Positions 25,324-42,249 of a stretch of 57,446 nt of DNA are shown here, piece by piece. Position numbers and translations under genes: made by a program. The stretch is from positions 1 to 57,446 of the IMG/VR virus record IMGVR_UViG_3300021108_000002. One strand, written 5' to 3'. This stretch comes from a virus. The notes under the pieces were generated by a model. That model was not told where the DNA came from. It saw nothing but the letters and a program-made list of their open reading frames with translations, and ran no database searches. The stretch's first letter is position 1, and each line of letters begins with the position of its first letter.

Positions 25324-25343
25324 TTAGGGTTAGTTAGTAGTTT

Positions 25344-25378
25344 GTAGAGGAAGGTCTTTGGCCTCCTCTACATTTTTT
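25344..25378 (+). terminator. Rho-independent terminator
   Basis: GTAGAGGA and TCCTCTAC form a stem with an inner GG/CC pair, followed by ATTTTTT. Confidence 0.85.
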
Positions 25379-25390
25379 CTACTATATTTG
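25357..25390 (+). promoter_or_regulatory. Bacteroidota-type promoter for the HTH gene and tRNA/ncRNA
   Basis: TTTG at 25357-25360 and TATATTTG at 25383-25390 match the TTTG/TAnnTTTG consensus with 22-base spacing. It overlaps the preceding terminator and lies about 40 bases before ATG 25429. Confidence 0.45.
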
Positions 25391-25716: not shown

Positions 25717-25719
25717 TAT

Positions 25720-25791
25720 AGTCAGGTGGCTGTAATTGGTAACAGCGGTGCAATATTGCATAGAAATGCAGGTTCAAGTCCTGTCTTGACT
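25720..25791 (+). tRNA. tRNA-like gene with shortened anticodon arm
   Basis: The acceptor AGTCAGG pairs with CTTGACT, and three further pairs extend it outward. The D arm is GCTG/CAGC with TAATTGGTAA loop. The T arm is GCAGG TTCAAGT CCTGT, with a canonical T loop. Between D and T arms there are only 21 bases, and the anticodon region is the 12-base palindrome TGCAATATTGCA, leaving a loop of 4-6 bases rather than 7. No normal anticodon can be assigned. It may be a decayed tRNA or a tRNA-like domain of the following RNA. No CCA is encoded. Confidence 0.6.
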
Positions 25792-26304
25792 ATATATTGA
25801 TATTAGCTGATTGTATTAACGTCATGTAAGTCATTGGCCATCGGCCAGCATTGGCTTGGTATAGTAGCTATTTAATTAAAGGGTCTGATCTGAGGAGCTA
25901 TATAGCGTATTAACTAAATTAGTCAGGGCAGTATCAAGTTGAGCGGTTCCGTCACTCAGTGGTTGCAAACTAAGAGTGGTCATACCTAGTAACAGTCGAT
26001 CAGAACAGCACTAGACCCATAAGAACTATGGAACCCTTGGATAGACCCTTTTTTAAGACATTACCAAATTGAAGTCAGTGGCAATAAGACCGGCCACGTG
26101 AAATGTCCCATGTAACAAGTTATGTGGAGCCATTATAAAACCGGACATTTGGGAGCAGTTAATGAAATCTCCATGTATGGAAGCTACTTATACGTTACGT
26201 GTAGCAGAACGCACTTATAAACAGACGGTAAATCGTTCCAATGGTGCCCCGAAAAAGTAATTAACGAACCATAGAGGATAGATATAACGTCTATCCTCTA
26301 TTTT
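25792..26304 (+). ncRNA. Large structured non-coding RNA candidate downstream of the tRNA
   Basis: About 510 bases with no plausible reading frame and higher G/C than neighbours. Possible helices: TGGCC/GGCCA near 25836-25848, AAAGGGTCT (25878) with AGACCCTTT (26043), GTGGC (26078) with GCCAC (26093), AAATGTCC (26101) with GGACATTT (26143), and GCTAC (26183) with GTAGC (26201). It ends in a 12-bp terminator. Size, phage setting and position next to a tRNA resemble the GOLLD and ROOL giant RNAs; assignment to either is not shown. Confidence 0.6.
26271..26304 (+). terminator. Strong terminator of the large RNA
   Basis: ATAGAGGATAGA at 26271-26282 pairs perfectly with TCTATCCTCTAT at 26290-26301 around a 7-base loop, followed by TTT. 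It lies 12 bases before ATG 26316, so the next gene must use read-through or its own start signal. Confidence 0.8.
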
Positions 26305-26315
26305 AAAACTAGATT

Positions 26316-26747
26316 ATGAAAACAGAAGATATTATTAACAAGTATCCTAAGATATTTGAAGATTACCAAGGTAATCCTAATGGAATTAATTGGCATGGTG
26401 TACCAGATGGCTGGTTACCAATTATAGATAAACTATGTGGTTGTATGCAATCATATATAGATCATAACACTACATATACAAAAGATGGACCTATAAAATC
26501 TATGCAAGTTAAGTGTACCCAAATGAAAGAAAAGTTTGGAGGACTACGTTTTTATGCTGATAGTCATGATGAGATCATAGAAGGTATGATAGAAATGGCT
26601 GAATATATGTGTGATAACACTTGTCAAGACTGTGGATCTGAAGAAGATCTCGGTGTAACATCTAATTGGATAAGTGTATTATGCAGAAATTGCGTAATTG
26701 CAAATGGTGATAGAGCTATGAACGCTTGGAAACCTAAAAGTAAATAA
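26316..26747 (+). CDS. Phage-conserved zinc-ribbon protein
   Basis: A 143-residue protein. The pattern MKEKFGGLRFYADSHDEIIE followed by CQDCGSEEDLG and VLCRNC is widespread in phage and prophage small proteins. Two CxxC pairs suggest one zinc site in the C-terminal third. The N-terminal part is helical (IINKYPKIFEDYQG). The function is unknown in the family. Confidence 0.7.
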   Translation: MKTEDIINKYPKIFEDYQGNPNGINWHGVPDGWLPIIDKLCGCMQSYIDHNTTYTKDGPIKSMQVKCTQMKEKFGGLRFYADSHDEIIEGMIEMAEYMCDNTCQDCGSEEDLGVTSNWISVLCRNCVIANGDRAMNAWKPKSK

Positions 26748-33683: not shown

Positions 33684-34823
33684 ATGTCTAGAGTAAAATC
33701 TATTACCAAAAGAACTACGCAAGAAGTGCGTCAGATTGAGACCTCTCTAATTAATAAAGAGGAAGTATTTAAAATGCTAGCTTTAGCAGAAGCAACAGGA
33801 CTACCATGTCTATTGATTGGTGCACCAGGCGTAGCAAAAACTAAAACTGTACTTGACTATGCTAAAGCATGGTTGAACAGAGACGGTAAAATGACAGCAA
33901 AAGATTTTGCTGAAAAGATTTATATTTTAGAAACTGATGAGGGTACTAAAGCATCAGAAATTAAGGGTATGCCTGACTTAGGTAAGTTATTTACTGATAA
34001 TGAGTATTCACTTAGTACACCTATTGCTGATGCAGAGATTGTTATCATCAACGAGGTGGATAAAGCTAGCTCAGCTATCCGTAATGCTATGCTTGGTGTA
34101 ATGAATGAGAAGTTCTTATTCAACGGCAAGCATAAAATCCCATGTAAATGGAAGTTATTTGTAGCTACATGTAATGAGATACCTAAAGAAGAAAAAAACT
34201 CTCCTTTCTGGGACCGTTTCATGTTGAAGCATACAGTTAATCGTGTATCTGCAGGTGAGATGATTAAGTATTACAACAAAGGTGGTCGTGAGTACCGTGA
34301 GAAGTTTACAATTGGTATTCCTAACAAAGTTGAGATTAACGAAGTTGAAATTCCAGTGACTAAACTAGAAAAGTATATGGAAGTAGGTTACAACCATAGC
34401 TCTGATAGAACTCTAACCTTTGTACCAACACTTTCTAAAGCAGTATCTTATATATGGGATATTTCAGTAGATAAAGCTCTTGTAAAAACAGCTCAGATCA
34501 TGATTGATCAAACTGCAGGTTCTGAATTACAGAACAAACTAATGTCACCAGAAGTTAAAGCAGTGATGAGTAAGGTGGAGATGTTACATAGCTACCAAAC
34601 CAACGAGCAGCTAGAGCTTGCTATTGCAGAGATTGAGGGTCTTGTTAACACCTATGCTACAAGAGGTATTATGGACTCTGGGCAAGTAAATGAGATTGAG
34701 ATCTCTATGCAGTATATCTTACAGAATCATCCGGCACGTGTAGATGATACAAATACTGAAGACTTAGAAGAAATGATGGCAGAAGTAGAATCTTTGCCGG
34801 CAACTTCTTCAAACCCTTTTTAG
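33684..34823 (+). CDS. MoxR-type AAA+ ATPase
   Basis: A 379-residue protein. Walker A is LLIGAPGVAKTKT (about 38-50). Walker B is VIINEVDKASSA (about 115-126), with Asn-Glu in place of Asp-Glu. Sensor 1 is FVATCNEIPKEEK. The C-terminal domain has a DRTLTFVPTLSKAV segment. This matches the MoxR/RavA group, whose members act with VWA proteins, and a VWA gene follows. It probably remodels a protein complex. The C-terminus is acidic and short. A slippery heptamer lies at its stop (see findings). Confidence 0.85.
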   Translation: MSRVKSITKRTTQEVRQIETSLINKEEVFKMLALAEATGLPCLLIGAPGVAKTKTVLDYAKAWLNRDGKMTAKDFAEKIYILETDEGTKASEIKGMPDLGKLFTDNEYSLSTPIADAEIVIINEVDKASSAIRNAMLGVMNEKFLFNGKHKIPCKWKLFVATCNEIPKEEKNSPFWDRFMLKHTVNRVSAGEMIKYYNKGGREYREKFTIGIPNKVEINEVEIPVTKLEKYMEVGYNHSSDRTLTFVPTLSKAVSYIWDISVDKALVKTAQIMIDQTAGSELQNKLMSPEVKAVMSKVEMLHSYQTNEQLELAIAEIEGLVNTYATRGIMDSGQVNEIEISMQYILQNHPARVDDTNTEDLEEMMAEVESLPATSSNPF

Positions 34824-40113: not shown

Positions 40114-42249
40114 TTAAAAGTTATTATAACCGGTTAACTTAATTTGTGTAGAGTTAAGACTTATTCCTAACTGATTTCCTTTAGAATCTGCAGCATCCAT
40201 AAGTTGACTAACTTTTACAGATGTAAGAATATCTACTCCTTGACCTATTGTAGTAAACTTAAGTTTAAAAGGAACCTTCACTCCAGATATAGCTTCTGAA
40301 TTATTCTTATCCAAGGCACCAAACTTAACTCTGCCGTCCTTAGATTTTGCAAACACATACCATGTATTTGGTACATTGGTTAACAGCTCTTCAAACTTGA
40401 TTTTAGTTGGATCATAAGTAAATTCAAACTGTAATCCAGTAACAGATACTCCTCTAGTATCTATACTTACTGGGATCTCAATAGTATTAGATGTAACTGT
40501 AAGATTATTAAGGTTAACTTCAATTTCTTTTACACTAGTTGGTGCTGAAATAGAGTTACCAGTTGTATTAGCTTGTATAGACATTGTTCTAAATGCACTA
40601 TTAGTAACTAAACTATTAACAGCATTTGTTTGTACAGTAGCAGTACCTCCTGAACTAGTGATCACTTGAGAAGAGTGAGATCTGTTTACATCACCCCATA
40701 AAAGATATTTCAGATCTAAAATAGCATTAGTACCAGGAGTTCCAGTCTTAAAGAAAGTTTTTGGCACAGTAATATTCTTCCAGTTAGCTGCAGTGATGGC
40801 TCCCCAAGATGCATTTACAGAGCTATTAAACTCAAACTCAGCTCTTAAAGAATAATCAACATTCTGATCGTTAACATTACGTATAGAAGATACATATAAA
40901 GACGTACCATCTTTTGCTTTAACAAGTGTAGAAGGTACAGTGTATTGGGCCCAAGTTCCATCTTGAGAAACATATTCAATAGGTCCTGTATAGATATCAA
41001 AAAGCTGTACACTTTTAATAGTATTAGGTGCTACACCACTAGCAAACTCTCTCATATCAATACGAAGAGTACTAGAAGATGTGCCTGGAGTAACATAAGC
41101 CCATTCAACTTGGCCAGCAAGTGTAGTTGCATCAGAAGCATTCCATGTAGGAAGAGACATATAACCTCCAGTTCCTGCTGTATAACCACTAGGGAGCATA
41201 AACAATGTATCTATACCTGCCACTTGTGCAAGCAATTGGGGAAGATCTCCACCATCTATCGTTTTATTACGATTAATGTCTGCGGCATATAATGACTGTC
41301 CAGTTTTGATACTTTGGCCATTAGATCCGTCCAGTCCCATTGAAGTAAATTCACCCTGAGCTGTAGTAAAATCAGATATAGTGATTGCATTACCATATAT
41401 AGTATACAACTTATCCATATCGTGCATTACAGTAACCTCATACACTTTATTATTTGCTAAAGAAGCTTGATTAATATCAACCTCTCCTGTAGAAGTAATG
41501 GGAAATAATACCCCTGTATTAGTAAGAGTATCTCTAAAAGAAACTCTTAAGTTAGATAGATTAAATAAATTAGAGTTTAGATCAACCTTAGCAGATACAT
41601 ACTTACCATAGTTTTGGTTCATAGTAACTGCAGTGGATAAAGGAGCTTCCATTGTAGTAGCATCATAGACACCATTAGCTGTCCAACCAGCTACAAAGTT
41701 TAACTTAATAGGATTAAATGTATATGCTGTAGAAGCAGCTTTAAGTCTAAACTTAATCTTAATTAAATCACTATAACTACTATAAGGCATAGCTGAATTA
41801 GTAGCCCATGATAGAGTAGTTCTTAAAATAGCATTAAGTCCACCTGCACCATTAAAAGTATAATTGGCGTATTGATAATTAGTAGTACCGTTACTAGTAT
41901 TATTAGCTGCTGACCCAGAAGTTATTGAGTTCCAAGTGTAGTTAGGATAGTTATAATATGATAACTGAATATTAGAACCTTGTGGAAGAATGCCACCATT
42001 ACCCCCGGTACCAGTGTGAGCTACAGATACAATCTCAAAATTCACATGATCATACATGATATCAAATAACAACTGACGTGTTGTGTTGTTATTCATACCA
42101 TTACCATAAATGATATAATCAAAAGTTTCTCCTCTGTTAAGAGAAGAACCTCCAATAGATGTAGCAGCTTTAAACTTAATCTGACCATAAGAAAGTGTCG
42201 TGATAACACAAAAAAATGTCACAAAAAGAGACGTAATAAGTTTATTCAT
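40114..42249 (-). CDS. Exported cohesin/dockerin-like protein
   Basis: A 711-residue protein with a signal peptide ending SYGQ (about residue 23). Residues 24-215 and 575-708 both resemble cohesin-type beta sandwiches (IEIPVSIDTRGVSVTGLQF, EFTYDPTKIKF). Between them is a dockerin-like Ca loop (AADINRNKTIDGGDLPQLL, 322-340) and a second short one (GDVNRSHSS, 519-527). The middle holds further beta domains. Such modules assemble extracellular complexes in bacteria. In a phage cassette with a CsgG-like protein it may be secreted to the cell surface. Function unproven; alternatives are an adhesin or a spike decoration. Confidence 0.65.
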   Translation of the reverse strand: MNKLITSLFVTFFCVITTLSYGQIKFKAATSIGGSSLNRGETFDYIIYGNGMNNNTTRQLLFDIMYDHVNFEIVSVAHTGTGGNGGILPQGSNIQLSYYNYPNYTWNSITSGSAANNTSNGTTNYQYANYTFNGAGGLNAILRTTLSWATNSAMPYSSYSDLIKIKFRLKAASTAYTFNPIKLNFVAGWTANGVYDATTMEAPLSTAVTMNQNYGKYVSAKVDLNSNLFNLSNLRVSFRDTLTNTGVLFPITSTGEVDINQASLANNKVYEVTVMHDMDKLYTIYGNAITISDFTTAQGEFTSMGLDGSNGQSIKTGQSLYAADINRNKTIDGGDLPQLLAQVAGIDTLFMLPSGYTAGTGGYMSLPTWNASDATTLAGQVEWAYVTPGTSSSTLRIDMREFASGVAPNTIKSVQLFDIYTGPIEYVSQDGTWAQYTVPSTLVKAKDGTSLYVSSIRNVNDQNVDYSLRAEFEFNSSVNASWGAITAANWKNITVPKTFFKTGTPGTNAILDLKYLLWGDVNRSHSSQVITSSGGTATVQTNAVNSLVTNSAFRTMSIQANTTGNSISAPTSVKEIEVNLNNLTVTSNTIEIPVSIDTRGVSVTGLQFEFTYDPTKIKFEELLTNVPNTWYVFAKSKDGRVKFGALDKNNSEAISGVKVPFKLKFTTIGQGVDILTSVKVSQLMDAADSKGNQLGISLNSTQIKLTGYNNF

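Follow-up and report, generated by a model that had tools for sequence, protein, structure and literature searches.

A stretch of about 510 bases in a viral genome record raises the question of whether it encodes one large structured RNA of a known phage class or something else. The window analysed here is the whole 57,446-nt IMG/VR record IMGVR_UViG_3300021108_000002, and the stretch lies between an HTH_36 gene on one side and, on the other, a gene for a 143-aa product without known family (26316-26747). The initial annotation described the stretch as a single structured, non-coding RNA next to a tRNA and proposed it as a strong candidate for GOLLD or ROOL, or perhaps a new class.

Genomic setting and coding status

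A major capsid protein of the crAss-like type is encoded in the window (Crass_capsid, E 8e-31). By capsid, the closest named phage is Leptolyngbya phage Lbo-JY46 at only 29% identity, and the phage is therefore distant from cultured ones. A 13-base core pattern of RNA A, the RNA described below, is absent from Lbo-JY46. DNA similarity searches against annotated phages returned only tRNA-sized or marginal matches for the window locus and no matches for the divergent locus L108. Elsewhere, the window encodes a MoxR-type AAA ATPase (33684-34823, plus strand) and a 711-aa protein (40114-42249, minus strand) whose C-terminus matches a cohesin domain (E 1.9e-6) and which has no relatives in the annotated phage collection.

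The interval 25793-26304 contains no ORF of at least 40 aa, and the ORF-free span scanned extends from 25717 to 26315. The GC content of the interval is 40.0% compared to 35.0% window-wide, approximately the 94th percentile among 512-base windows. The description of the region as non-coding and G/C-richer than its surroundings is thus correct. Its fold is also more stable than those of shuffled sequences (z -2.3), with none of 100 shuffles as stable. The features identified in and around the interval are collected in Table 1.

Table 1. Features of the RNA locus in the window, and GOLLD homologues in related phages.
Feature	Position	Strand	Basis
Terminator-like hairpin and T-run just 5' of the HTH_36 gene	25343-25378	+	fold z -3.8
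Putative promoter of the unit, -7 element TATATTTG (TAnnTTTG)	25383-25390	+	sequence
HTH_36 protein, 95 aa	25429-25716	+	Pfam PF13730, E 1.3e-9
tRNA-shaped element, cloverleaf, 4-nt anticodon loop (AUAU)	25718-25793	+	Rfam RF00005 and fold
RNA A (domains R1 and R2)	25802-26050	+	covariation in relatives
RNA A domain R1 (69 nt), long hairpin with internal loops	25802-25870	+	covariation
RNA A domain R2 (172 nt), closed by P1, inner helix P4	25879-26050	+	covariation
U-run adjoining P1 of R2, where RNA A may end	26049-26054	+	sequence
RNA B, two domains	26064-26265	+	closing helices 26064-26069/26147-26152 and 26158-26163/26260-26265
Intrinsic terminator, 13-bp stem and U-run	26271-26304	+	fold z -6.4
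GOLLD homologues L064-L068	G007:28266-28660, G020:21198-21599, G019:9369-9767, G008:38517-38912, G012:73466-73861		RF02032
GOLLD homologues L156, L157	G037:13851-14246, G029:4902-5296		RF02032

Two covarying RNAs

Related loci were gathered from IMG/VR using two flanking proteins, short RNA patterns, and an alignment of the HTH_36 protein. Because the RNA sequence played no part in assembling the protein-based sets, these guard against finding only the content of the patterns. Pattern matches L042, L044, L051, L052, and L055 were dropped as their context or partner strands were missing.

In domain R1 of RNA A, 88% of cells are paired across 13 distinct sequences, with two-sided changes at 16 of the 22 pairs. 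A covariance model of R1 recovers one copy per record at E ≤ 0.05 in 21 of 26 related records, including short variants outside its building set; the few extra weak matches are at chance level. Domain R2 is closed by helix P1, in which GGGUCU-GAU-CUGAGG (25881-25895) pairs with CCUUGG-AU-AGACCC (26035-26048), that is, 25881-25886 with 26043-26048 and 25890-25895 with 26035-26040, separated by a conserved GAU/AU internal loop. The 21 loci compared carry 19 distinct P1 sequences, in which pairing holds for 189 of 190 cells, with up to six pair types per position, and the most divergent P1 stems belong to relatives recovered via the HTH_36 protein rather than via the RNA pattern. The inner helix P4 (25919-25923/26010-26014) varies among phages as UUAGU/ACUAG, UUACC/GGUAG, and UUACA/UGUAG, and stem B covaries in relatives bearing an insert that is absent from the window. 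The strands of P4, stem B, and the extended P1 set were extracted manually. In RNA B, 98.6% of cells are paired across 11 sequences, with two-sided changes at 13 of 26 pairs.

The compensatory changes exceed both shuffled and slid controls. None of 500 shuffles matches the pairing of R1, none of 20,000 strand shuffles equals that of P1, and none of 500 reaches the level observed for RNA B, although these counts are not probabilities because related sequences are not independent. Slid controls were far lower wherever run (R1, P1 of R2, and RNA B), dropping to 24-43% for R1. The long-range pairings first noticed in the window are therefore backed by covariation in P1, and conserved folds are kept through compensating mutations in dozens of uncultured relatives, for RNA A and RNA B alike.

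The covariation also bears on whether the element acts as RNA or as DNA, for instance as a replication origin with cruciforms and HTH_36 as its initiator. An HTH_36 homologue of another phage is annotated as a replication initiation protein, which favors such an origin. However, the many G-U pairs among the covarying positions argue for RNA rather than DNA cruciforms, the unit is bounded by terminators and putative promoters, and no iteron array is seen in the sequence. We consider a DNA element very unlikely.

The initial annotation further proposed alternative folding, in which GGGTCT at 25881 pairs with AGACCC at either 26013 or 26043. Both pairings can form in the window, but only the 26043 copy tracks its partner in relatives (GGGTCT/AGACCC, AAGTCT/AGACTT, and ATGTCT/AGACAT). 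The 26013 copy changes to AGATCC, AGAACC, or AGTCAC without matching changes and overlaps the 3' strand of P4 (TTAGT at 25919-25923 with ACTAG at 26010-26014). The pairing with 26013 was accordingly rejected, and the alternative fold is, from these comparisons, probably due to chance.

Nor does the stretch appear to be a single RNA of about 510 bases. RNA B directly follows R2 in L012, L013, L016, L018, and L019, as in the window, whereas it sits behind a ParB-like gene, away from RNA A, in L046, L047, L048, L090, and L099, and the span therefore consists of two separable RNAs.

Several further elements accompany RNA A in relatives. A GTTC/GAAC stem adjoins and crosses stem B in relatives of R2, and the two cannot both form at full length because there is no linker. 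The AGUA/GAA segments were considered by eye as a possible E-loop. A domain 5' of R1, termed R5 (L015:5452-5617, L017, L018, and L013), resembles R2 in its start (CCUGAUC..AGAGCUAGUAA) and end (UCCUGUGAUAG), and is perhaps an internal duplication of R2. A conserved non-coding module of approximately 90 nt, termed R3, lies 3' of R2 (L041:2127-2216, L023, L024, L031, and L040) and has no Rfam match. An RNA-A insert pattern was not found in 84,980 prokaryote genomes.

Relation to tRNA, GOLLD, ROOL, and other families

The tRNA initially reported beside the RNA is present in shape but probably not in function. The Rfam tRNA model (RF00005) scores positions 25720-25792 at 39.1 bits, and the element shares the cloverleaf with acceptor, D, and T arms. 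However, ARAGORN called no tRNA on 25718-25793, and the anticodon loop has 4 nt in place of the 7 nt of a tRNA. There is consequently no normal anticodon, and the element, as modeled, is probably a tRNA-shaped structure unable to decode. A sister copy with 97% identity is found in L012, and different closed domains precede R1 and R2 in other phages (e.g., L015, L017, and L048).

The locus shares several traits with GOLLD. It is phage-encoded and multi-domain, with a tRNA-shaped element 9 nt before RNA A in a window encoding Crass_capsid, and GOLLD itself is present in related phages. On the other hand, neither GOLLD (RF02032) nor ROOL (RF03087) matches the window at gathering score, and neither was detected around the locus at E-values up to 5. 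RF01998, initially cited as GOLLD, is in fact group-II-D1D4-1, a group II intron. The GOLLD test is sensitive since seven relatives give RF02032 matches with E-values of 1e-22 to 1e-32, albeit below the curated cut-off. The ROOL test is weaker, as RF03087 matches none of 21 related records and the control genomes are also without a match. Moreover, in phages carrying both GOLLD and RNA A (L023, L024, L031, L040, L047, and L099), GOLLD lies elsewhere in the genome; in the three measured (L023, L024, and L047), it precedes RNA A by approximately 3-6 kb on the same strand. The idea that this locus encodes a diverged GOLLD or ROOL RNA is thus largely refuted and extremely improbable, and the candidacy proposed at the outset is not upheld.

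The GOLLD homologues of the crAss-like phage relatives (L064-L068, L156, and L157) are diverged, scoring 81-112 bits against an Rfam cut-off of 150, and were probably overlooked by standard annotation.

In size, RNA A (approximately 250 nt) and RNA B (approximately 200 nt) fall far below GOLLD, which is often longer than 800 nt (PMC12286853). GOLLD and ROOL assemble into RNA-only nanocages of unknown function (PMC12286853). The ROOL family resembles the present RNAs in being phage-associated, near tRNAs, and supported by covariation, and a long RNA of Ligilactobacillus salivarius, which has been equated with ROOL (PMC12286853), also adjoins an HTH gene (PMC5643018). The HTH gene of the window differs in lying upstream on the same strand. 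By analogy, a mode of action comparable to that of GOLLD and ROOL may apply to RNA A and RNA B.

Among other Rfam families searched at relaxed E-values, only sub-threshold matches to SpF39_sRNA, rpsL_ricks, and nos_TCE were obtained, and these were judged to be chance. The complex closed domains could in principle belong to an intron or a self-cleaving ribozyme, and a hatchet ribozyme (L025:94-226, 78 bits) precedes the HTH_36-R2 locus by approximately 5 kb in one relative. However, the locus has no Rfam ribozyme or intron match, and the genes on both sides of the region are complete, with no ORF interrupted by it, so that the chance of this explanation is very slight.

The tmRNA (RF00023) is a frequent downstream neighbor of RNA A, found within approximately 2.5 kb of R2 in about 12 relatives, whereas RNA A and RNA B do not match its model and the window itself has no tmRNA match. 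These tmRNA genes lie 3' of HTH_36/R2 in L020, L022, L023, L050, L086, L101, L104, and L106-L109 and at G011:106580-107005 and G014:11705-12122. ARAGORN, run on three of the loci, did not report the tmRNA genes there. Very short sub-threshold matches of 86-142 nt span the whole model (G019:3184-3325, G020:13946-14087, and G009:29571-29656) and are possibly tmRNA-like RNAs without the messenger part.

No description of RNA A or RNA B was found in the literature. Comparative sequence evidence identifies two new non-coding RNA families, RNA A and RNA B, that are not in Rfam, in agreement with the early suggestion of a structured RNA of a new class.

Transcription, exchange between phages, and possible roles

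The HTH_36 gene directly adjoins RNA A on its upstream side in 20 of 20 loci by gene order, while the downstream gene varies. Just 5' of the gene, TAnnTTTG at 25383-25390 (TATATTTG) is what we take to be a Bacteroidota-type -7 promoter element, a call made by consensus match only. The same element precedes HTH_36 in many relatives but not all, with several having no recognizable element, and T-run-trailed hairpins occupy the equivalent place 5' of HTH_36 in most relatives. At the other end of the unit, the terminator initially given as 12 bp is present with a stem of 13 bp (26271-26283/26289-26301) followed by UUUU, and hairpins of similar shape and unrelated stem sequence follow RNA B in most relatives. 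Past P1 of R2, 24 of 30 loci have TTTT within approximately 24 nt, and the U-run is absent in the other six. Of the 30 loci, 8 have a TAnnTTTG element that starts right after R2, as though the RNA stopped at this point and another unit began.

A riboswitch-like cis leader of the downstream gene could account for the next start codon lying only 17-26 nt past R2 in L015, L017, and L020, where a leader role is possible, and R1 has conserved internal loops with an aptamer-like look. However, the relatives carry unrelated genes 3' of RNA A (143 aa, 92 aa, 189 aa, ParB-like, and tmRNA), and the conserved downstream gene expected for a leader of one gene is thus missing. In addition, a terminator separates RNA B from the next gene in the window, TAnnTTTG follows R2 in the 8 loci mentioned, and the proposed switching pairing lacks covariation support. 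We regard a leader function as improbable; the position of TTTT or TAnnTTTG after R2 and the differing next genes fit the 3' end of an HTH_36 unit better.

The RNAs may instead be a cis-acting 3'-UTR element on the HTH_36 transcript, which would be bound by HTH_36 or set transcript stability for autoregulation, without an independent RNA product. In support of this, HTH_36 is always immediately upstream with its stop codon often just approximately 10 nt 5' of R1 in relatives, and the putative HTH_36 promoter in L024, L040, L049, L053, and L054 is overlapped by the palindrome TGTAGAA..TTCTACA, a possible autoregulatory operator. RNA B, however, moves off HTH_36 to a position behind a ParB-like gene, and the several domains gained and lost go beyond the needs of a protein-binding site. 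RNA A is also exchanged independently of HTH_36. The closest RNA A (R1 and R2) to that of the window is in L048 (81%), whose HTH_36 is only 71% alike over partial length, whereas the closest HTH_36 gene is in L012 (98.6% identical), where RNA A is only 79% alike. RNA A is therefore exchanged as a module because its closest relative and that of HTH_36 differ, and these alignments indicate that the RNAs are swapped between phages independently of the flanking genes. A purely cis-acting 3'-UTR element is accordingly given a minor, though not negligible, chance.

The likeliest reading, which we favor with moderate confidence, is that processing of the HTH_36 transcript yields RNA A and RNA B and that both act in trans. 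In this crAss-like phage, a single transcription unit would comprise the first terminator, the promoter, the HTH_36 gene, the tRNA-shaped element, RNA A, RNA B, and the final terminator, and both RNAs would derive from the 3' portion of the HTH_36 transcript. Processing around the tRNA-shaped element would free the RNAs, the U-run and the final hairpin would terminate them, and they would fold into compact closed domains acting as stable phage RNAs.

The role of such RNAs is the most speculative part of this reading, and may concern the handling of host translation or a GOLLD/ROOL-like RNA particle. It is conceivable, though we give it a low probability, that RNA A and RNA B belong to a phage RNA toolkit, including tmRNA, tRNA-shaped decoys, and sometimes GOLLD, that seizes or protects translation, with RNA A swapping closed domains like a multidomain protein and perhaps forming RNA-only particles.

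Large phage RNAs near tRNAs, such as GOLLD and ROOL, are abundant, elaborate, and functionally unexplained. The locus adds two RNA families of crAss-like phages with a fixed HTH_36 neighbor, a frequent tmRNA neighbor, and visible domain shuffling. At approximately 250 and 200 nt, RNA A and RNA B are suited to probing, structure determination, and deletion, and would thereby make the function of such RNAs easier to test.
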